Shown here: in pieces, positions 4,046-61,628 of the stretch
Layout of the letters: each line of letters starts with the position of its first letter
Position numbering within the stretch: position 1 is the first letter of the stretch
Assembly (NCBI RefSeq): GCF_000758585.1
Contig: NZ_CP009281.1
Location: forward strand, 3,472,001-3,536,000
Length of the DNA: 64,000 nucleotides
Direction: 5' to 3'
DNA from: Paenibacillus sp. FSL R5-0345
Lineage (GTDB): Bacteria; Bacillota; Bacilli; Paenibacillales; Paenibacillaceae
Notes under the pieces: generated by a model
Told to the model about the DNA's origin: nothing
Database searches by the model: none
Seen by the model: only the letters and a program-made list of their open reading frames with translations
Translations under genes and position numbers: made by a program

Positions 4046-4627
4046 ATGCAAACTTCAGACAGAATCATTGAAGCCGCGACACGGCTCATCAAAAAGAATG
4101 GCTATCGGGGAGTTAGCACCAAAGCCATTGCAACGGAAGCTAAAGTCAATGAATCTACGATTTTCCGGCAATTTGGAAGTAAGCAAGGCATATTGGAAGC
4201 CATCATTGAAAGACATTCGGATATTCCGCAATTTGAGAAGCTGTTAAAAGAGGACACGACCGATAATCCGGAAGTCGATCTGTTGAATATAAGTCAGCAG
4301 TACCGTTTGTTTTTTCATAAAAATGCGGACATCATTTTGATTGGCATCCGCGACAAAGGAATGCTTCCCGAATTAGACAGAGTTCTCGCCGATCCGCCGG
4401 CGAAGCTTCACTCCTTGCTGGTTGAATATTTTGAACGCTTGCAGAAGAAAAAAGTTATCGCCAAACAGGATGAGCGTCTTGTCGCAATGTCTTTTCTCTC
4501 GATGTGCTACGGATTTCAGATGAGCGAGCTGATTCACCGGCAATATCAATCCCAATTTGTCACCGAGGAAGAGTTCTACAACCATAGTGTCTCATTGTTT
4601 GTTAAAGGAATTTCAGCTCAGCCATAA
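4046..4627 (+). CDS. TetR/AcrR-family transcriptional regulator
   Basis: 193 residues. The N-terminal helix-turn-helix domain covers about residues 5-52: RIIEAATRLIKKNGYRGVSTKAIA, then KVNESTIFRQFGSKQGIL, the classic TetR signature. The C-terminal two thirds is helical and divergent, as expected for the ligand-binding part. The start ATG follows AAAGGAGAAATACA. Upstream lie overlapping palindromes (3954-3977) likely bound by this protein, and further away the palindromes over the MBL gene promoter. The effector is unknown. Confidence 0.9.
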   Translation: MQTSDRIIEAATRLIKKNGYRGVSTKAIATEAKVNESTIFRQFGSKQGILEAIIERHSDIPQFEKLLKEDTTDNPEVDLLNISQQYRLFFHKNADIILIGIRDKGMLPELDRVLADPPAKLHSLLVEYFERLQKKKVIAKQDERLVAMSFLSMCYGFQMSELIHRQYQSQFVTEEEFYNHSVSLFVKGISAQP

Positions 4628-43930: not shown

Positions 43931-45715
43931 TTGATGATTGGTCAAATTAACCCAGAAACTAAAAATGAAACCGCTATCAATAAATCTTATTCGCAAATGT
44001 ACAGATGGGTTCTATCGTATTTAAGCTCATACCGTATTACGTTTACCCTGACTGTATTGTTGGGAATCATTATTGCAATCATTGAGCTATTATTACCAAA
44101 ATCCCTACAGATCTTCATTGATAAGGTGTTGCCTGTACGAAATCCGCATTTTATTATCTACGCTATCTTCAGCTTGGTGATATTGGTCTTCGTCAGCATT
44201 CTTCTATCATATAAAAAAAATACCATGGAAAGAAGCATGCAAGAGTATATTGCAAGAGATATTCAGTACAGTGTCTATCAAAAAATAAAGGGCATGGGAT
44301 TTTCTTATTTTGAGGAACATCCGGTTGGAGAAAGTATAGGTTTATTACAGACGGAGGTAGATTCCCTTCAAAAATACTACAGGGAGCTGCTCCCAAAATA
44401 CATACGTACTGGACTGTTCAGCGCCGTTTCGATCTTCTTAATGAGCACGATGAGTGTTCGCCTTACACTTATTCTTATCCCAACGATTCTTATTTACCAT
44501 TTGTTCGGTTCCAAATTGGATCAGAAAGTATCCGATTACGGGAAACAGTGGGGAGACCAGAGGGTTCATTTGTATCAGACCGTTTATGAGACATTGTCTT
44601 CTCAGTTGGAACTCAAGATTAATTCAGCTGAACTGTGGGGCAACCGTCGGAGTGAATCTGCGGTTCTCCTGCATAACCAAACATTGCTACGCTCATTTTC
44701 TTACCAAAACCTCCGGACGTCACTCCGACGCTTAGCACAATATGCCGGAGCTATCGGAACTATGCTCTATGCCGTTTACCTTCATAACTCCAACATCTTG
44801 ACCGTAGGTGAAATTTCTGCTTTTTTGCTTTACTTTTTTATAGCTATGCAGAATATGACCTCCTTTATTGTTTTGACATCCGAACAGCGAACCATGCTGA
44901 AGCAAATCGAACGTTTATATTCTCTTCATCAGCTGGAACCTGAAATTTCAGAGGACAAGAGTCCCACTGTGATCGAACAAGTTGCAGGGAATGTAACATT
45001 TCACAATGTTGGTTTTGCGTATAAAGGTAAAGCCGACGTGTTACAAGAGATTTCAATGGACATTAAAGCCGGGCAACGAGTTGCTATTATTGGTCCTAGC
45101 GGAGAAGGAAAATCTACCTTATTGAAATTGATTCCTCGGTTTTATGACGTTAAAGAAGGCTCAATTACCATTGATCAGGTCGACATCAAAAGGTGGCCAC
45201 TTTGGAAGCTGCGAGAAGAGGTGGGTATTATTTTTCAAGAAACTTACCTGTTCGGCTCGACGATCAAAGAGAATATATTGGTCGGAAAACCTCAAGCTAG
45301 TGACGAGGAGGTGGTAACTGCTGCAAAAGCGGCTGCTGCCCACAATTTTATCATGAGCTTGCCGCAAGGCTATGACACCCTGGTAAAGGAAAGAGGAGTC
45401 ATACTCTCAGGAGGGCAAAAACAAAGAATATCCCTTGCCCGTTTATTTTTAAAAAGCCCTTCGATTTTGCTGATGGATGAAGCCACTGCCGCTTTGGATA
45501 ATATTAATGAAGTAGAAGTAACGGATGCCATAGGGCGCTTGATGAAGAACCGAACCATGATTACAGTTGCCCATCGAATCTCAACGATTAAAGATTATGA
45601 TGTTATTGTTTATCTAAGGGGCGGAAAGATCGTTGAATCAGGAACCTATCAAGAATTGATAGATGCGTGTGGTGAATTCTTCCAACTTGTTAAGGGGCAG
45701 GGGGACATGGCATGA
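43931..45715 (+). CDS. ABC exporter half-transporter, subunit A
   Basis: 594 residues: fused membrane domain (about 30-330, six segments) and ATPase domain (about 350-590). Walker A GPSGEGKST near residue 390, signature LSGGQKQRISLARL, Walker B ILLMDEATAALD, H-loop VAHRIST. Start ATG with AGGAGTAACATTG upstream. The next gene overlaps by 4 bases and encodes a second half-transporter, so the two form a heterodimeric exporter (lipid, drug or peptide). There is no peptidase C39 domain. Substrate unknown; no biosynthetic genes are nearby. Confidence 0.88.
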   Translation: MMIGQINPETKNETAINKSYSQMYRWVLSYLSSYRITFTLTVLLGIIIAIIELLLPKSLQIFIDKVLPVRNPHFIIYAIFSLVILVFVSILLSYKKNTMERSMQEYIARDIQYSVYQKIKGMGFSYFEEHPVGESIGLLQTEVDSLQKYYRELLPKYIRTGLFSAVSIFLMSTMSVRLTLILIPTILIYHLFGSKLDQKVSDYGKQWGDQRVHLYQTVYETLSSQLELKINSAELWGNRRSESAVLLHNQTLLRSFSYQNLRTSLRRLAQYAGAIGTMLYAVYLHNSNILTVGEISAFLLYFFIAMQNMTSFIVLTSEQRTMLKQIERLYSLHQLEPEISEDKSPTVIEQVAGNVTFHNVGFAYKGKADVLQEISMDIKAGQRVAIIGPSGEGKSTLLKLIPRFYDVKEGSITIDQVDIKRWPLWKLREEVGIIFQETYLFGSTIKENILVGKPQASDEEVVTAAKAAAAHNFIMSLPQGYDTLVKERGVILSGGQKQRISLARLFLKSPSILLMDEATAALDNINEVEVTDAIGRLMKNRTMITVAHRISTIKDYDVIVYLRGGKIVESGTYQELIDACGEFFQLVKGQGDMA

Positions 45716-47433
45716 AATACTTCAAATGGACATGGGCATATCTAAAGCGGCAGAAGCTATTGTTGGTCCTAATACTGATTCTAACCGTTATCCAGATCAT
45801 CACTCAGTTTGGGGGAAATTTTTACCAAAAGCAGTTAATTGACGATGTAATTGTTAAGGGAGATATGAATCTCCTCCGTTCAACAATCTTGATTATCGGT
45901 GCGTGCTATATTCTGCATGCCTCATTGACATTTCTAAGTCCCTACGTATCCCTTCAAAATTATTCTAGACTTCGTCTGGACATGTCTCGATGGCTCCTGC
46001 GTTATATCAATCAGGTGTCAATCCTGAGAATCCAACGAGAACGTATTAATGATATGGTGAGTTTGTTTTTATGGCAACTTCATCTGGTTCCATTCGCTTT
46101 ATCAGATCGTCTCTGGAATTTTATTCAAAATTTGACGTTAAGCCTTGCATTGATTATTTTCATTGCCTGGGTTAGCCCCAAAATGCTATTCATCTGTATT
46201 CTTACTGCGATTATTTATGTATGGCTGGGATACTTATATGGAATTAAAACAAAAGAAGCCCGGAAGAAGGTTTGGGATGCCCGTTATAAATTAGGGGTCT
46301 GTTTGGAAGAGGGGGTATCTGCTACCAGAGAAATTACAGCCTATAATCTGGATGAATGGGACTCGTCACGATACAATAGCCTATTTAAAGAATACTACGA
46401 TCATAGCATGCAAGAAGTCCGGACTAATAATAAAAAGCTCATATGGAGTAAGGGACTGGAATGGGTCACGTTACTCTTCATATTTTTCTATGGCGCTTAT
46501 ATGGTCTATAATGGCCAAATGTCGATAGGTGTCTTTGTAGTCACTTATATTTTTGGAACGCAATATTTATCAACGGTCCTTGCTTTATTCGATTCGGGAA
46601 CCGATATAATAGGTCATTTAACGCATGTGGAACGAATTATGAAATTTACCGAACAACCCATTGAGAAATCGGGGGAGCGGCGTCTTAAAAGCGGTGTACA
46701 AACAATATATCTTGATAAGATTACATTCCGCTATCCGGAACAGGAATCAGATGCTTTGCACGAGATTGAGTGCGAATTGCCTATAGGGAAGACCATCGGA
46801 ATCGTCGGCGGAAGCGGATCCGGAAAATCAACCCTGGCTGGTATCCTCTTCGGGCTGCATGACCCTGGGGAAGGCAACGTTCTTGTAAACGGTATTCCTC
46901 TGAAAGAATGGGATTATGATGATTGGAAAATGAATACGGCCATCGTACTTCAAGAGCCCTATCTGTTCCATGACACCCTCCGCCAAAACCTGCTAATGGG
47001 GCAAGAAATAAGTGATGAAGCCATTATGCGGGTGCTAAAAATAGTTCAACTGGAATCTTTTATCCACTCTCTATTGAATGGGCTCGATACTATTATTGGT
47101 GAGAGAGGGATTACACTCTCAGGTGGACAGCGCCAAAGAGTGGCTCTAGCTAGGGCATTGCTGAGACCTTCAGAAGTCTTAATTCTGGACGAAGCGACAT
47201 CCGCTTTGGATTTGGAAACGGAAAGAAAATTTCAAGCTGCATTGAGACAAGAAAGGCTCGGAAAAACCACAGTCATTGTTGCACATCGTTTATCCACGAT
47301 TCGAGATGCCGATCTTATATTGGTTATGGATAATGGGCATGTGGTCGAACAAGGTGGACATAGTGTGTTAATGGCTTTGGGGGGATATTATCGGAAGCTT
47401 GTGGACACTCAAGAGAATATCTATCAAGATTAA
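45712..47433 (+). CDS. ABC exporter half-transporter, subunit B
   Basis: 573 residues with membrane domain (about 15-305) and ATPase domain (about 335-573). Walker A GGSGSGKST near residue 365, LSGGQRQRVALARALL, Walker B VLILDEATSALD, H-loop VAHRLST. ATGA overlap with subunit A. Both catalytic sites look complete in the two subunits. Followed by an unrelated T-box-controlled gene. Confidence 0.88.
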   Translation: MKYFKWTWAYLKRQKLLLVLILILTVIQIITQFGGNFYQKQLIDDVIVKGDMNLLRSTILIIGACYILHASLTFLSPYVSLQNYSRLRLDMSRWLLRYINQVSILRIQRERINDMVSLFLWQLHLVPFALSDRLWNFIQNLTLSLALIIFIAWVSPKMLFICILTAIIYVWLGYLYGIKTKEARKKVWDARYKLGVCLEEGVSATREITAYNLDEWDSSRYNSLFKEYYDHSMQEVRTNNKKLIWSKGLEWVTLLFIFFYGAYMVYNGQMSIGVFVVTYIFGTQYLSTVLALFDSGTDIIGHLTHVERIMKFTEQPIEKSGERRLKSGVQTIYLDKITFRYPEQESDALHEIECELPIGKTIGIVGGSGSGKSTLAGILFGLHDPGEGNVLVNGIPLKEWDYDDWKMNTAIVLQEPYLFHDTLRQNLLMGQEISDEAIMRVLKIVQLESFIHSLLNGLDTIIGERGITLSGGQRQRVALARALLRPSEVLILDEATSALDLETERKFQAALRQERLGKTTVIVAHRLSTIRDADLILVMDNGHVVEQGGHSVLMALGGYYRKLVDTQENIYQD

Positions 47434-47558
47434 TGCCAAGTCGACAGATAAAAATATGTTAAGCGCATTAAACTATCGCCTCATAGATCGAGTCAAACAG
47501 CGCTACATTTAGTTAACTAAGGTTGGACATCAACCGAAAGAAAAAGATCGAAGGGTTA

Positions 47559-47586
47559 TTGACAGGAAGATATTGTTAACTATAAG
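47559..47586 (+). promoter_or_regulatory. Promoter of the T-box leader
   Basis: TTGACA (47559-47564), 16-base spacer, TATAAG (47581-47586). Predicted RNA start near 47593. Confidence 0.65.
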
Positions 47587-47592
47587 CTTGAA

Positions 47593-47850
47593 TAAATATT
47601 ATCAAAACGCAAAGATTGGGAGTATTAAGGGATATACCTGTTGCTCAGAGAACTTTCGGGAGGTGTGAGACAGTGTACAGGTTCCTCAACTCACCCATGA
47701 GTGATAAGACTGAATATTATTAAGTCTTATCGGCTAACCCCGTTATCGGGTCCAAAGATGATTCGTTTTATTCAAGCACGAATCAAGAAGAGTGGTACCG
47801 CGCTTGGTAAAACCTAACGCCTCTTTGTAGGCAATAGGTTTTTTTCTTTG
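47593..47850 (+). ncRNA. T-box leader riboswitch
   Basis: The T-box core AGTGGTACCGCG is at 47791-47802, followed by a terminator (AACCTA...TAGGTT with an inner GCCT/AGGC pair, then T-run, about 47811-47846). Upstream hairpins typical of T-boxes are present: TGATTCGT/ACGAATCA (47759-47785), ATAAGACT/AGTCTTAT (near 47703-47730) and a Stem I with GCTCA/TGAGT closing a specifier region that reads AACTCACC. The triplet before ACC is CTC, pointing to tRNA-Leu sensing. The gene controlled is a HIT-family protein, an unusual T-box target. Confidence 0.82.
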
Positions 47851-47885
47851 GATTTTAAATTGAGAATAAGGGAGCGTATACTAAA

Positions 47886-48341
47886 ATGATGTCTTCAAAT
47901 GATTGTTTTATATGCCGCAAACATAATGGTGAACTTAAAGTGAATGGTGGGTGCATTTATGAAGATGAATTTGTGTATGTGGGACACATTGGATCTAATG
48001 AACCTTTGATTTATTTGGGTTACCTTATAGTAGATTTAAAGCGGCATGCAGCTGGCTATGGTGATATGAACGATGATGAAGCACGTGCTATTGGCTTTAT
48101 TTTAAATAAGTTAGGTAGAGGATTAAGAGACTCAGAAAACGCTGAACATGTATATAGCTTTGTACAAGGTGATGCTTTTCCTCATTTTCATATTCACCTT
48201 ATCCCAAGGTACCCTGGCACACCCAAAGAATTATGGCATCCAACAAATATCAGAAACTATAAAGAAGTACATGGTACAGTTAATCAAGTAGAAGAAGTCT
48301 GTTCCCGATTGAGAGGTGTTCTTCAACGTGAAATCGAATAG
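47886..48341 (+). CDS. HIT-family protein under T-box control
   Basis: 151 residues. Histidine-triad domain with H100-F-H102-I-H104 (HFHIHL) near the C-terminal third and a zinc-type C7-x-x-C10 pair at the start. Nucleotide-binding hydrolase or transferase of the HIT superfamily; no closer subgroup can be given. An AAGGGAG-type site precedes the ATG. It is the first gene after a T-box leader, so its expression should rise when a tRNA (probably tRNA-Leu) is uncharged. The following small gene overlaps its 3' end. Confidence 0.82.
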   Translation: MMSSNDCFICRKHNGELKVNGGCIYEDEFVYVGHIGSNEPLIYLGYLIVDLKRHAAGYGDMNDDEARAIGFILNKLGRGLRDSENAEHVYSFVQGDAFPHFHIHLIPRYPGTPKELWHPTNIRNYKEVHGTVNQVEEVCSRLRGVLQREIE

Positions 48342-48636
48342 TTTAACAGATTTAAACTGGATTGGTTCTGAACAAGCATATCTCAATTGGCCATCAGTAG
48401 AGAAATTTCAACACATAACTATCGGTAGGTATGGTGGAAACATTGAGAGTGGAGCACATAAAAATGAGGATGGTTTATTAGTTTGGCAAAGCATTTCATG
48501 GGAGTTTGTAACATTAATTGATGCACATAACTCTTGTGATAGTGCAGAATTGATTATTGCCACGCTAAAGGAAGTAGAAAATTCGATTAAAGAGATTCTC
48601 GATTCAAAAATCGATGTTTTTTTTGATCAGATTTAA
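48328..48636 (+). CDS. Small protein of unknown function, coupled to the HIT gene
   Basis: 102 residues from a GTG at 48328 (GAGAGG 11 bases upstream; the GTG at 48316 is too close to that site). Soluble, no membrane segment, W-rich first half (LNWIGSEQAYLNWPSVEKF ... WQSISWEFV), helical second half. Not recognised. It overlaps the 3' end of the HIT gene by 14 bases, so both are under the same T-box. Confidence 0.65.
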   Translation: MKSNSLTDLNWIGSEQAYLNWPSVEKFQHITIGRYGGNIESGAHKNEDGLLVWQSISWEFVTLIDAHNSCDSAELIIATLKEVENSIKEILDSKIDVFFDQI

Positions 48637-48969
48637 ATATTACTACTCCAAATATTTAAATCGGATAGGTTTATTGATAAATGTCGTTCCTTAAAATAGT
48701 GAAGCATCTTGCTTAATCTGTATTCGAAAAGAGAACGTTCTATGGTGCTTTTCCGTTGGTGATTGTCAGTTGTTTCTAATTCATGATGATTTAGAAAAAT
48801 GGGGTCAAGTGAGTTTAAACCAAAGAAATTTTCAAAGATACTGCGCTTAATTCTATTAATAAATTAATGAATTCTGCTGAACAAAATAATTTAATTAAGA
48901 GTACTGAAATTAAATTTTACTTAATAGGGATATATACACTTATTTCTTCCAAAAATCTTCAATTAATTT

Positions 48970-49314: not shown

Positions 49315-50031
49315 TTACTCCTTGATTTCTTTGTCCTTGCCGCCGATATTAAATCCTAACTTTCCATTATATTTGCCTACCTGTCCGGCAACTCCTAAGC
49401 CTGCTCCTTGACCGCCGCCGAATTGTGCCTTGGCCTGGGCGCCGAGACCATTTTCGCCACCAAGCTGTAAATGGGTTTGCAGTCCCGCGCCTTGACTGAA
49501 ACCCAAGTGTCCATCGGCATCAGCACTCAAACCGTACTCTCCTCCGACCTGCGCCCCCGTATAAAAACCAGGCTCTTTACCGCCACCTATTTGGGTTTTT
49601 GCCTGAGCCGCAATCCCGTACTTGCCGAAGGACTGGGCTTCGGCAATGAGCCCTAGACCCTCGCTGCTGTTCAGATGAGTATTGCCTTGCGCATGGATCC
49701 CATATGAAGGAGTGCCCATATGGCCGCCTGCATACATACTCATGCTACCTAAGGCTAAATTTCCGCCAGCATTTAAACCAATGCCGTGTTTACCACCTAC
49801 TTTTCCTCCGGTATTTAGCTCAATTCCCTGTCCGCTGCATACATTTTTGTTCTTATAACCATTTAAAAGTTCTTTTTTGGTGTTTTCGCTGTCTGAGGGT
49901 AGATCTGCCAGAATGCTTTCTGAACGGAAGAGATGGTAGTAATGAGAGTAGGGGAAAGGATTGTAACGGGTAAAGTAAGGGGATACGGATGGATTAGCCT
50001 GGCTGTTTGGATATTCGTTCCCAAAGGTCAT
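49315..50031 (-). CDS. Glycine-rich repeat protein of unknown function
   Basis: 238 residues from the minus-strand ATG at 50031, which has GGAGG 8 bases upstream; an in-frame ATG 15 bases earlier contains that site. Residues 1-70 are unique and tyrosine/proline-rich (PYFTRYNPFPYSHYYHLF). Residues 75-235 are a glycine-rich repeat with units of the form GGxxGLxAxAxxxxGxxxGxGL, period about 20. Such periodic sequence may form a beta-solenoid or fibre. No signal peptide or membrane segment. Not recognised; exosporium, spore-coat or intracellular structural roles are possible but unsupported. Confidence 0.75.
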   Translation of the reverse strand: MTFGNEYPNSQANPSVSPYFTRYNPFPYSHYYHLFRSESILADLPSDSENTKKELLNGYKNKNVCSGQGIELNTGGKVGGKHGIGLNAGGNLALGSMSMYAGGHMGTPSYGIHAQGNTHLNSSEGLGLIAEAQSFGKYGIAAQAKTQIGGGKEPGFYTGAQVGGEYGLSADADGHLGFSQGAGLQTHLQLGGENGLGAQAKAQFGGGQGAGLGVAGQVGKYNGKLGFNIGGKDKEIKE

Positions 50032-50099
50032 CTGGGATACCTCCATTATTCAATTTATTACAACAGCCTATTCATGGATGAGTTGAAGTGATACCCTTC

Positions 50100-57443: not shown

Positions 57444-57739
57444 AGAATATTGCACAAAGGTGCCTACATTGTGGTTTTTTGACACTAATTAACCCACATA
57501 ATGATGGATTTAGGTTATTTCAAATATTTAATCACACAATCAATACATGATTTAGCGAAATTGTAATAAATAAGAGCAAGAAAAGAATTCAAATACTAAT
57601 AAGTATAATACGGGCGGTTGGTATAAAATTAAACCCGTCTTTCAATTCGATTGCCTTATGTAAATGAATAATTATAGAGAAAATTGGTGAATTTTAGGTT
57701 ATTATAAAGGAAACAAATCGTTCTTCGAGGAGAGTGTAT

Positions 57740-59902
57740 ATGTATATTGATAAAGTGAAGATTAAAAACTTTAGGCTATTAAATGAAGTTGAACTCACAC
57801 TTGAAGAAACAACTACATTAATAGTAGGGCGTAATAATTCTGGTAAAACATCTTTTACAGAGATATTTAGACGTTTGCTATCAGATAATACTGCTAAATT
57901 TAATCTTGAGGACTTCTCCATACCCATACAAGAGGATTTTTGGAATGCATTTATGTTATTGAAAGAGGATAAAGAAGATAATGAAATTCGACAAACCCTG
58001 CCCTATATAGAAATAACACTTACACTTATTTATGATATAGAGACTGACAATCTAGGAGCGTTAGGAGACTTTATTATTGATCTTGATGTGTCATCCACAC
58101 AAGTAATAATAAACATAAAGTACCAATTAAAAGATGGAAAGATTAGTTCACTTTTTGATAACCTCGAATATACGGGTGATCCAAAAAAAATTGTGCAAGA
58201 AAAAAAAGCCTTCTTTAGAGAAATAAAAGAACGAGTGCCTCAGTATTTTGCTGCCTATGTTCACGCAATTGATCCAAAAGATAGCACTAATCAAAAGTTA
58301 TTAGATATATCAGTTTTTCGTTCTCTAATACAAACTGGATTCATTAATGCCCAAAGAGGATTGGACGATACGACACATAAAACTAGTGACGTCCTCGGCA
58401 AAGTCGTAGAGCGTATGTTGGACATAGCTAAAAAAGATAATTCGTTACCTGATGATAATAATACAGCTTCATTACTAGAGGACGCTGTTAAAGAAATACA
58501 GTCTAAACTAGACACTGATTTCAATGAGCACTTAAACAAGTTACTTCCGGCACTATCACTTTTCGGATATCCAGGTCTTAACAACGTACCACTTCATACT
58601 GAGACAATATTAGACGTAAAAAGGCTTCTGGAGAACCACACTAAAGTACATTATCCTGGTATGAATGGTATCAATCTTCCAGAAACATACAACGGATTGG
58701 GTTCTAGAAATTTAATTTACATACTATTCCAATTGTTCGAGTTTTTTAAAACATATAAATCAAATAAAATCGCACCAAACTTTCATCTGGTTTTTATTGA
58801 AGAGCCGGAAGCTCATTTACATCCTCAAATGCAGGAGGTTTTTATTCGCAAAATCACTGAGATAATTAATGACTTTTCACAACGTTTTAATAGTGGGGTA
58901 CCATGGCCAATTCAATTTATTATTACAACTCATTCTACTCATATTGCTAACGAAGCCCCTTTTGAAGCTATCAGGTATTTTTTAAGTAATAAATCTAGAG
59001 GGATTTATACACGGGTAAAAGATTTAAAAGTGGGATTTTCAGGAGAAACTCATAAGGAAGACAAAGAATTCTTACATAAATATTTAACTTTAACAAGATG
59101 TGATTTATTTTTCGCAGATAAAGTCATATTAATCGAAGGTCCAACCGAACGAATTTTAATGCCTAAGATAATTCAAAAAATCGATAAAAACAAGACACCT
59201 GAAGAGTCGTTATCGAGTAAATATCTAACAGTAATAGAAGTTGGCGGGGCATATGCACACCATTTCTTTTCATTTTTAGATTTTTTAGAACTACAATCCC
59301 TTATTATAACTGATATAGATTCAGTTAAAGCTGATAATGGATCTTACAGAAAAAAATGCATAGTAGCAGAAGGGACATATACCAGTAATACCTGTTTGAA
59401 ACGATGGTTTAGCAATGATAATATTTCACCAGCAGACCTACTAATAAAATCAAAGCAAGAAAAAATTCATAGACTAATACGTATAGCGTATCAAGTGCCA
59501 GATGGAACAGAACCAGGATCGCAGGAGATGGTAGCTGCATTGGAGGAAGCTGCAGCAACAAATTCTGCTGATGCTCCTCAGAAAACAGATGTTGTAGATA
59601 TTTTAGAATACCAGACATTACCTTGTGGCAGAAGTTTCGAAGACGCATTCATGTTAGCAAATAAAGATTTATTTGAGAATCTAGTCGGTACTACCAGTCT
59701 AGAAATAGCGAAAGCCGCATGGGATGAAGCAAAAAAAGTTGATAAGACAAACTTTGCTCTAGATTACGCAATAAACAAAACCGATTGGGATGTTCCCAGA
59801 TACATCAAGGAAGGATTATTTTGGTTGGCGGAAAATCTCGAAGAAAATCTTATCGATGCACCAATTGAAATCCCATGCGCGGAGGTATTAACCAATGCAT
59901 GA
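57740..59902 (+). CDS. OLD-family ATPase-TOPRIM nuclease, GajA-like
   Basis: 720 residues from the ATG at 57740 (GAGGAGA upstream; GTG at 57734 is the alternative). N-terminal ABC/SMC-type ATPase: IDKVKIKNFRLLNEVELTL, Walker A GRNNSGKTSF at residue 30, signature-like YNGLGSRNLIYILFQLFEF near 315, Walker B FIEEPEAHLHPQMQEVF near 355. C-terminal TOPRIM: FADKVILIEGPTERILMPKII near 460 and IITDIDSV near 525. This is the class 2 OLD layout; with the helicase gene directly behind it matches Gabija GajA. It is longer than the roughly 580-residue reference GajA. Cuts or nicks DNA; ATP-regulated in the known system. Confidence 0.88.
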   Translation: MYIDKVKIKNFRLLNEVELTLEETTTLIVGRNNSGKTSFTEIFRRLLSDNTAKFNLEDFSIPIQEDFWNAFMLLKEDKEDNEIRQTLPYIEITLTLIYDIETDNLGALGDFIIDLDVSSTQVIINIKYQLKDGKISSLFDNLEYTGDPKKIVQEKKAFFREIKERVPQYFAAYVHAIDPKDSTNQKLLDISVFRSLIQTGFINAQRGLDDTTHKTSDVLGKVVERMLDIAKKDNSLPDDNNTASLLEDAVKEIQSKLDTDFNEHLNKLLPALSLFGYPGLNNVPLHTETILDVKRLLENHTKVHYPGMNGINLPETYNGLGSRNLIYILFQLFEFFKTYKSNKIAPNFHLVFIEEPEAHLHPQMQEVFIRKITEIINDFSQRFNSGVPWPIQFIITTHSTHIANEAPFEAIRYFLSNKSRGIYTRVKDLKVGFSGETHKEDKEFLHKYLTLTRCDLFFADKVILIEGPTERILMPKIIQKIDKNKTPEESLSSKYLTVIEVGGAYAHHFFSFLDFLELQSLIITDIDSVKADNGSYRKKCIVAEGTYTSNTCLKRWFSNDNISPADLLIKSKQEKIHRLIRIAYQVPDGTEPGSQEMVAALEEAAATNSADAPQKTDVVDILEYQTLPCGRSFEDAFMLANKDLFENLVGTTSLEIAKAAWDEAKKVDKTNFALDYAINKTDWDVPRYIKEGLFWLAENLEENLIDAPIEIPCAEVLTNA

Positions 59903-61628
59903 AGGATTTATGATTAATCCCGCTGAATTAGCAGCTAAAGAATCTCTTGATCGTGTCTATGAATGTATCACTGGAAGAAGAAGTTTTGTATTAGAAGCAG
60001 GTGCAGGTGCAGGTAAAACCTATACATTAATTCATTCTCTAAAACACATAATTAAGAACGAAGGTCCCGAACTAATTCGAAAAAATCAAAAGGTTGCATG
60101 TATAACCTATACTAATGTAGCTAGAGACGAGATAGAGTCTCGGACTGACCGTCATCCTGCGATTTTCACAGCGACAATTCATGCATTCTGTTGGTCAATA
60201 ATCAAAGATTTTCAAACTAGACTACGCGAAAAATTACAACAACTAGACAAATGGTCAGAACGATTAAAAGAAATTACCGATATTAAAAACTATTCCATTC
60301 AATATGAGTTAGGCTATCCCAGAGTCACTAATAATCAAATCATGCTTGGTCATAATGATGTTCTTTCATTAACTGTTTGCTTACTGGATGATATTAAATT
60401 CCGTAAATTATTCCTAATGCGATACCCAATCATACTGATAGATGAATACCAGGATACAGATAAGCTTTTTGTAAAATCTTTAAAGCAACATTTTCTTAAT
60501 AAACCAGATGGTCCACTCATTGGATTCTTTGGAGACCATTGGCAGAAGATTTACAATACAGGGTGCGGAAAAATCGAGCATGACGATTTAGAAGTAATTG
60601 GTAAAAGGGCAAATTTTCGTTCTAGTAAAGCAATTATTGATGGCCTCAATAAAATGCGACCGGAATTACCTCAAGAAATTAGTGATCCTCTAAGTATAGG
60701 ATCTATAAACATCTATCATACCAATCAATGGGAAGGGGTACGTCGAACGGAGGGCCATTGGAGAGATGATCTTCCATCTGATGTTGCACACAACTATCTT
60801 GAAAAGACTAAAGCTAAACTTATAATCAGTGGATGGGACTTTTCCCCAGATAAGACTAAAATACTAATGTTAACTCATAACGTTCTTGCCAATGAACAAG
60901 GATATCAAAATTTAGCAAGTGTTTTTTCACGCAATGAATCATACATTAAGAAAGAAAACCCATATATGGCTTTTTTCATGGATGTATTAGAGCCTGTTTG
61001 CATAGCTTATGAGAATCGGAAATATGGTGAAATGTTCTCCATACTCGAAGGCAACACCCCTCTTATTCGTTCTCATAGTGATAAAAAAAATTTAGCAAGT
61101 CAAATGGACAAACTTTTATCCTATCGGAAAAGTGAAAGTATAGATAAGGTTATCAATCATCTTCTCCTTACAAAATATCCGTTATTACCAGAGAATATCA
61201 TGAAAATTGAAAATGATCTTTTAAATAATTATAAAGATGACTTTACTGAACACCAAAAAGAAATATGTGAACAGACACTGAAACTTAAGGCGGTTTCTTA
61301 TCAAGAAGTAATTGCTGTAAACAAATTCATAGAAGAAAAAACACCCTTTGCTACAAAACATGGCGTAAAAGGGGCCGAATTTGAGAATGTATTAGTAGTC
61401 TTTGGTCGAGGCTGGGCAATGTACAATTTCTCTCAAATGCTAGAATACGCATTAAATGATATTCCCCCGGAAAAGCTTGAGTTTTTTGAACGAAATAGAA
61501 ATCTTTTTTATGTTGCTGTTTCAAGGCCAAAAAAGCGGTTAGCATTACTTTTCACTCAAAAGCTATCTGATCCAGCAATTGAAACTCTGTCTACCTGGTT
61601 CGGAAAAGATTCAATCGAATTTTTATAA
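59895..61628 (+). CDS. UvrD/PcrA-like helicase, GajB-like
   Basis: 577 residues, superfamily 1 helicase. Walker A LEAGAGAGKTYTL near residue 35, motif Ia VACITYTNVARDEIE near 70, motif II IILIDEYQDTD near 190, motif III IGFFGDHWQKIY near 212, motif V KHGVKGAEFENVLVVFGRG near 485, motif VI NLFYVAVSRPKKRLALLF near 540. It overlaps the OLD-family gene by 8 bases, with GGAGG before its ATG. All helicase motifs look complete. In Gabija, GajB partners GajA to sense nucleotide depletion and activate the nuclease during phage infection. Confidence 0.88.
   Translation: MHEGFMINPAELAAKESLDRVYECITGRRSFVLEAGAGAGKTYTLIHSLKHIIKNEGPELIRKNQKVACITYTNVARDEIESRTDRHPAIFTATIHAFCWSIIKDFQTRLREKLQQLDKWSERLKEITDIKNYSIQYELGYPRVTNNQIMLGHNDVLSLTVCLLDDIKFRKLFLMRYPIILIDEYQDTDKLFVKSLKQHFLNKPDGPLIGFFGDHWQKIYNTGCGKIEHDDLEVIGKRANFRSSKAIIDGLNKMRPELPQEISDPLSIGSINIYHTNQWEGVRRTEGHWRDDLPSDVAHNYLEKTKAKLIISGWDFSPDKTKILMLTHNVLANEQGYQNLASVFSRNESYIKKENPYMAFFMDVLEPVCIAYENRKYGEMFSILEGNTPLIRSHSDKKNLASQMDKLLSYRKSESIDKVINHLLLTKYPLLPENIMKIENDLLNNYKDDFTEHQKEICEQTLKLKAVSYQEVIAVNKFIEEKTPFATKHGVKGAEFENVLVVFGRGWAMYNFSQMLEYALNDIPPEKLEFFERNRNLFYVAVSRPKKRLALLFTQKLSDPAIETLSTWFGKDSIEFL

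Follow-up and report, generated by a model that had tools for sequence, protein, structure and literature searches.

A mobile leucine T-box unit with a HIT-superfamily hydrolase gene in Paenibacillus and its possible role in inducible detoxification

The window, a 64-kb stretch of Paenibacillus DNA, contains a HIT-superfamily hydrolase gene preceded by a leucine-type T-box leader. Covariation among related leaders indicates that the leader is a real RNA, conserved as a switch, and comparison with other genomes indicates that the T-box/HIT unit is patchy and mobile. We consider the best explanation, with a probability of roughly 40%, to be that of a mobile, accessory and self-sensing detoxification gene, in which uncharged tRNA-Leu from a poisoned LeuRS would turn on the detoxifying enzyme.

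The leader RNA and its genes

The Rfam T-box model RF00230 matches the leader over its full length (E 7.5e-22; cut-off 93 bits, score in Table 1), and this is the sole Rfam match across the window. The specifier region reads AACTCACCC, in which the alignment to the model places CTC as the specifier codon. Two tRNA-Leu(GAG) genes are present in the host genome, and the one that was read has a discriminator A, which fits the UGGU of the bulge. For the analysis of covariation, we aligned ten leaders linked to HIT genes in Paenibacillaceae, Fictibacillus and other Bacilli. In the antiterminator, AGAG (47789-47792) and GCG (47800-47802) pair with CGCCTCT (47818-47824), while the terminator (fold -14.4 kcal/mol) displays compensatory changes in three of its 12 pairs; as both hairpins have bases in common, only one of them can form. 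The 30 pairs of stems I/II/III are 88% paired across the ten leaders, with 20 pairs altered on both sides. Their covariation score was reached by none of 500 shuffles, and the signal was lost when the pairs were slid. Function of the leader as a leucine switch is well supported by these alignments, from which a response to the tRNA is predicted.

The likely promoter was overlooked by a generic promoter scan, the -10 rule of which demands a final T; the GACA of its -35 box is invariant across the aligned HIT leaders. Directly upstream of the cassette, which has its own promoter, the forward strand carries two genes for ABC exporter half-transporters whose ends overlap (43931-47433). Further downstream follow a gene for a 243-aa glycine-rich repetitive protein with neither a Pfam nor an NCBIfam match (49315-50046, reverse strand) and a Gabija-type anti-phage pair recognised by PADLOC (57734-61628, forward strand; GajA 927 bits, GajB 843 bits). 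Elsewhere in the same genome (1086071-1086701; L006, L018) tandem T-boxes, both with CTC-type specifiers, precede leuA.

The HIT reading frame is intact, and H100, H102 and H104 as well as both cysteines of the CxxC motif (7-10) are invariant among 13 aligned HIT sequences. With the Pfam HIT profile the window protein scores 16.4 bits (E 0.014), which is under the cut-off of 21.5, and a relative (L033) scores 36.4 bits (E 8.7e-9), which is above it. The nearest solved proteins of the window HIT in phmmer are the PDB HIT proteins 2eo4 and 1y23 (E 6.5e-5). Low dN/dS values of 0.10-0.16 between the three closest species indicate purifying selection on the HIT gene, despite the broken state of its partner gene in the window. 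The structure model of the protein (mean pLDDT 53) was too poor for use. In P. xerothermodurans (L041, 5001-5051), 17 residues are identical to HIT 129-145 and nothing else of the protein is found, which is perhaps the remnant of a lost copy.

The partner gene starts with GTG and overlaps the end of the HIT gene by 14 nt, but is interrupted by an in-frame stop codon (48634-48636) and a frameshift further on, and homology to the intact gene is absent after its end in Table 1. Intact copies of 260-272 aa follow the HIT gene in relatives, and in P. paridis (L029) the copy overlaps the HIT stop codon. The P. paridis protein matches PF13672 (PP2C_2) at E 2.4e-13, its AlphaFold model (mean pLDDT 83) has PPM1K, RsbX and PstP as fold matches in the PDB, and the acidic metal ligands D48, D65, D145, D204 and D240 are invariant in the intact relatives. 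By profile, modelled fold and metal ligands, the partner in these relatives is a PP2C/PPM phosphatase. As PP2C was lost in the window and the HIT gene kept, the phosphatase is not needed for retention of the HIT gene. In another genome (G232; L134, L146) a PP2C gene follows the same Leu T-box on its own, in two copies, of which one is broken.

The coupled small gene of unknown function that the original prediction had placed behind the HIT gene is consequently not a genuine short gene: the reading frame ending at 48636 is the 5' part of a truncated PP2C pseudogene, as recognised by tblastn and blastn against the P. paridis gene. The other elements of that prediction, namely a T-box core with terminator, CTC (Leu) as the specifier and a histidine-triad protein, are upheld by the covariance model, the structural alignment with its covarying hairpins, and the HFHIH motif together with the PDB matches.

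Table 1. Features of the T-box/HIT unit in the window
Feature	Position	Strand	Evidence
Remnant of a tyrosine-recombinase cluster (its last gene)	47459..47521	+	80% identical to L029 4450-4514
Likely promoter (TTGACA, 16 nt, TATAAG)	47559..47586	+	read directly
T-box leader RNA	47603..47827	+	Rfam RF00230, 103.9 bits; covariation
Specifier codon CTC (Leu)	47690..47692	+	position in Rfam alignment
Antiterminator with T-box bulge UGGUACC (47793-47799)	47789..47824	+	7 pairs, 100% paired, 10 sequences
Intrinsic terminator (47811-47822 with 47829-47840, then T run)	47811..47846	+	12 pairs, 95% paired
HIT-superfamily hydrolase, 151 aa (C7xxC10, HFHIH 100-104)	47886..48341	+	Pfam, phmmer, dN/dS
Broken PP2C-type phosphatase gene	48328..48832	+	tblastn/blastn against intact L029 gene

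Recurrence, cargo and mobility of the unit

The link between T-box and HIT gene is not confined to the window but is seen again in Paenibacillaceae, in Fictibacillus and in other Bacilli. A T-box lies upstream of HIT-PP2C in Paenibacillus (L029, L030, L047, L049), Fictibacillus (L036, L037, L040) and other Bacilli (L064, L066, L068, L070), and the specifier of every HIT-linked T-box found is a leucine codon, either CTC or, in two Fictibacillus loci, CTT. Many HIT-PP2C operons of other Bacilli have no T-box, and presence of the T-box switches at least seven times along the HIT tree. In one locus (L059) the Leu T-box is followed by a SAM methyltransferase (MT) gene and then by the HIT gene, and a search with the MT recovered more copies sitting directly under Leu T-boxes. 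A T-box with a HIT gene was not described in the literature covered by our search, outside of which lay two older T-box surveys, and the main text of the T-box gene survey PMC2494555 does not mention a HIT-family gene.

A whole-genome search for the compact Leu T-box pattern yielded matches in 13 of 399 class genomes and 27 of 400 family genomes, and the reversed-pattern control gave none in any genome. Among the 40 distinct loci, 29 are located before HIT, PP2C, MT or GNAT+MT genes and 11 before leuA or a YvbW-type permease gene, a ratio that is biased upwards by the derivation of the pattern from HIT and MT leaders; this derivation did not predetermine the recovery of the loci with PP2C alone, the permease or leuA. 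The 29 comprise MT (17), MT then HIT (1), GNAT then MT (2), HIT with or without PP2C (7, including the window) and PP2C alone (2), and the 11 comprise the YvbW-type permease (8) and leuA (3). Decayed Leu T-boxes with a retained antiterminator core precede the HIT gene in L060 and the MT gene in L084, L086, L088 and L090. They seem to have lost the specifier arm and may have become constitutive or dead.

At E <= 1e-20, 19 of 400 genomes of the family and 16 of 399 genomes of the class contain the HIT gene. The window segment 47524-48832 has 93.9% DNA identity with P. paridis, where a cluster of genes matching tyrosine recombinases sits just upstream of the HIT copy. The 63 bases of the recombinase remnant in the window read ..LIDRVKQRYI.. 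in translation and resemble in this the intact reading frame of P. paridis (4140-4607), within which the matching stretch lies. The gene order in P. paridis led us to expect a Tn554-type element, but profile searches gave tyrosine recombinases only, and we therefore refrain from naming the element.

In the T-box tree the window leader clusters with other close HIT leaders (support 100/100), far from the host's own leaders of leuS, leuA and ilvB. On this ground a local duplication of a host Leu T-box was rejected; T-box and HIT gene most likely arrived together. As far as comparison of leaders and genes can tell, movement of the unit between species together with its T-box is shown. Carriage as phage or plasmid cargo was rejected, because no relative was matched in the phage collection and plasmids gave just distant HITs of about 30% identity.

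Resistance-type genes neighbour the unit in two cases, which serve as examples rather than as a statistical test. In L035 (5440-7365), HIT-PP2C is directly followed by a gene for an Mph-type macrolide 2'-phosphotransferase, which scores 532 bits to MphM against a curated cut-off of 610; in the neighbourhood of L030, an APH-fold kinase and a DHA2 drug efflux pump are encoded. No natural-product cluster beside the locus was recognised in the list of window reading frames.

Proposed function and rival readings

By established T-box logic, uncharged tRNA-Leu favours the antiterminator and thereby allows transcription of the gene. Charged tRNA-Leu runs short either under leucine starvation or under inhibition of LeuRS, and published facts on MccH, GNAT enzymes and N-methylated compounds favour inhibition over starvation as the relevant signal. 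HIT hydrolases confer resistance to peptide-nucleotide antibiotics, and one of them, MccH, cleaves processed microcin C, an aminoacyl-nucleotide that inhibits a synthetase (PMC7157772). Many aminoacyl-nucleotides are substrates for acetylation by the GNAT enzymes MccE/RimL, and aminoacyl-sulfamoyladenosines lose their effectiveness as synthetase inhibitors once they are N-methylated, which holds for the leucyl compound as well (PMC3817062). Hydrolase, acetyltransferase and plausibly methyltransferase are therefore three ways to disarm one kind of molecule. Among natural compounds, TM84 from agrocin 84 inhibits LeuRS and carries an N-acyl phosphoramidate (PMC5059758).

We propose that inhibition of LeuRS would cause uncharged tRNA-Leu(GAG) to accumulate, and that pairing of this tRNA with the specifier and the antiterminator bulge would let transcription go on. 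The HIT enzyme would then hydrolyse the toxic leucyl-nucleotide at a P-N or mixed-anhydride bond, for which the action of MccH on processed microcin C and the TM84 part of agrocin 84 provide models. With the charging of tRNA-Leu restored, the terminator would shut the gene off again. Where the same T-box type precedes MT, GNAT+MT or PP2C genes, these would represent alternative cargoes for the same compound class. The assignment of leucyl-nucleotides as substrate class of the HIT enzyme is drawn by analogy and tentative.

Action of the HIT protein on aminoacyl-adenylate-like compounds was already suggested in the original prediction, and on the same analogy we rate this idea as probably right; the T-box, the CTC (Leu) specifier and the HIT assignment of that prediction are confirmed. 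Apart from the small gene, that reading was incomplete with regard to mobility and cargoes, and its alternative of charged-tRNA quality control suits a patchy, mobile unit with varied cargo less well than accessory detoxification.

Several observations count against the best explanation. PP2C does not fit obviously into the scheme and is its least clear part, a T-box is absent from several HIT-PP2C relatives, and the third His of the triad is kept, as opposed to the Lys needed by MccH. We also know of no LeuRS-targeting antibiotic from this niche.

The main rival is housekeeping under leucine starvation, in which no drug is involved: the HIT enzyme would clear by-products of the starved synthetase (leucyl-AMP, Ap4A and other adenylylated metabolites) and PP2C would reset a phospho-protein within that stress response. 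Hint/HIT enzymes do act on aminoacyl-adenylates and dinucleotides, the same T-box type drives leucine supply genes (leuA, YvbW-type permease), and the overlapping frames of HIT and PP2C in relatives suggest translational coupling. However, the large majority of genomes do without the HIT unit, mobility is unusual for housekeeping, PP2C was lost from the window while HIT was retained, and the cargo is swapped for MT and GNAT+MT elsewhere. Patchiness and mobility fit resistance better, and we regard the housekeeping alternative as unlikely.

Rather improbable is a reading in which the cassette responds not to a LeuRS inhibitor but to some different threat or signal, for instance a phage or a toxin that is a leucine analogue or is directed at tRNA-Leu, with PP2C in signalling and HIT as a hydrolase of a nucleotide signal. 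The mobile accessory nature of the cassette and the occurrence of PP2C alone under a Leu T-box would be consistent with it, but no relative is present in the phage collection and neither HIT nor PP2C has any match among the defence models of PADLOC, by which a known anti-phage defence system was rejected; furthermore, a tRNA cut in its anticodon loop should fail as a T-box ligand. That the Leu T-box is a promoter-proximal passenger, repeatedly captured and lost with little adaptive meaning for leucine sensing, as its changing presence on the HIT tree and the decayed copies before HIT and MT genes might suggest, is very improbable in view of its specifier, bulge and both alternative hairpins, which are kept with covariation in distant copies, and of its association with four enzyme classes.

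With the detoxification reading preferred, the occurrence of mobile enzymes of drug-modifying type under this kind of T-box in dozens of related soil bacteria suggests a built-in resistance to poisons that block the loading of tRNA with leucine.

Known systems and significance

The Leu T-boxes of B. subtilis leuS, ilv-leu and yvbW share with the window leader the CUC specifier, the AGAGA and GNUG motifs of stem I, the bulge and the antiterminator/terminator switch, and the YvbW-type permease loci also have the compact form in common with it. By contrast, the known members of this class drive synthetase, biosynthesis and transport genes, whereas HIT, PP2C, MT or GNAT genes are found here.

MccH is likewise a HIT hydrolase encoded by a standalone or accessory gene, and the target proposed here is also an aminoacyl-nucleotide synthetase inhibitor, although with Leu instead of Asp as the amino acid. 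MccH has an essential Lys replacing the third catalytic His (PMC7157772), in contrast to the window protein with its HFHIH motif; membership in the MccH clade by this Lys mark was rejected, since His occupies the position in 13 of 13 aligned sequences. The MccE/RimL GNATs belong to a class inactivating aminoacyl-nucleotides, and a GNAT occurs under the same Leu T-box type, though in no more than two related genomes (L111, L112), in both accompanied by MT, and with no specific family above cut-off, RimI and ArsN1 being its best weak matches. Self-immunity to agrocin 84 by AgnB2 parallels the proposed defence against a leucyl-nucleotide blocking LeuRS, but AgnB2 is a resistant LeuRS copy and not, as proposed here, a T-box-controlled degrading enzyme. 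In erm-type attenuation the damage of the drug to translation itself is the inducing signal, which we likewise propose for the window unit. The sensor there is a stalled ribosome, whereas here it would be RNA alone, reading uncharged tRNA.

The window unit combines elements of known kinds, a T-box and a HIT resistance enzyme, and detoxification is the most likely of the readings considered. It is possible, though doubtful, that Bacilli carry a whole mobile Leu-T-box detoxification family (HIT, MT, GNAT, PP2C), in which the riboswitch senses poisoned LeuRS and the poison is broken down or altered by the cargo. If true, this family would constitute a class of T-box-induced antibiotic resistance and point to an undiscovered leucyl-nucleotide antibiotic in the environment of Bacilli. 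It would also provide a sequence handle on new resistance genes against synthetase inhibitors, and thence on unknown natural products that target synthetases, with leucyl-nucleotides as a testable substrate class for HIT, MT and GNAT families still lacking one. The usual view of T-boxes is that of nutrient sensors ahead of genes for amino-acid supply; a Leu T-box that is mobile and recurs on several unrelated small modifying enzymes would mean that T-boxes also sense poisoned synthetases.
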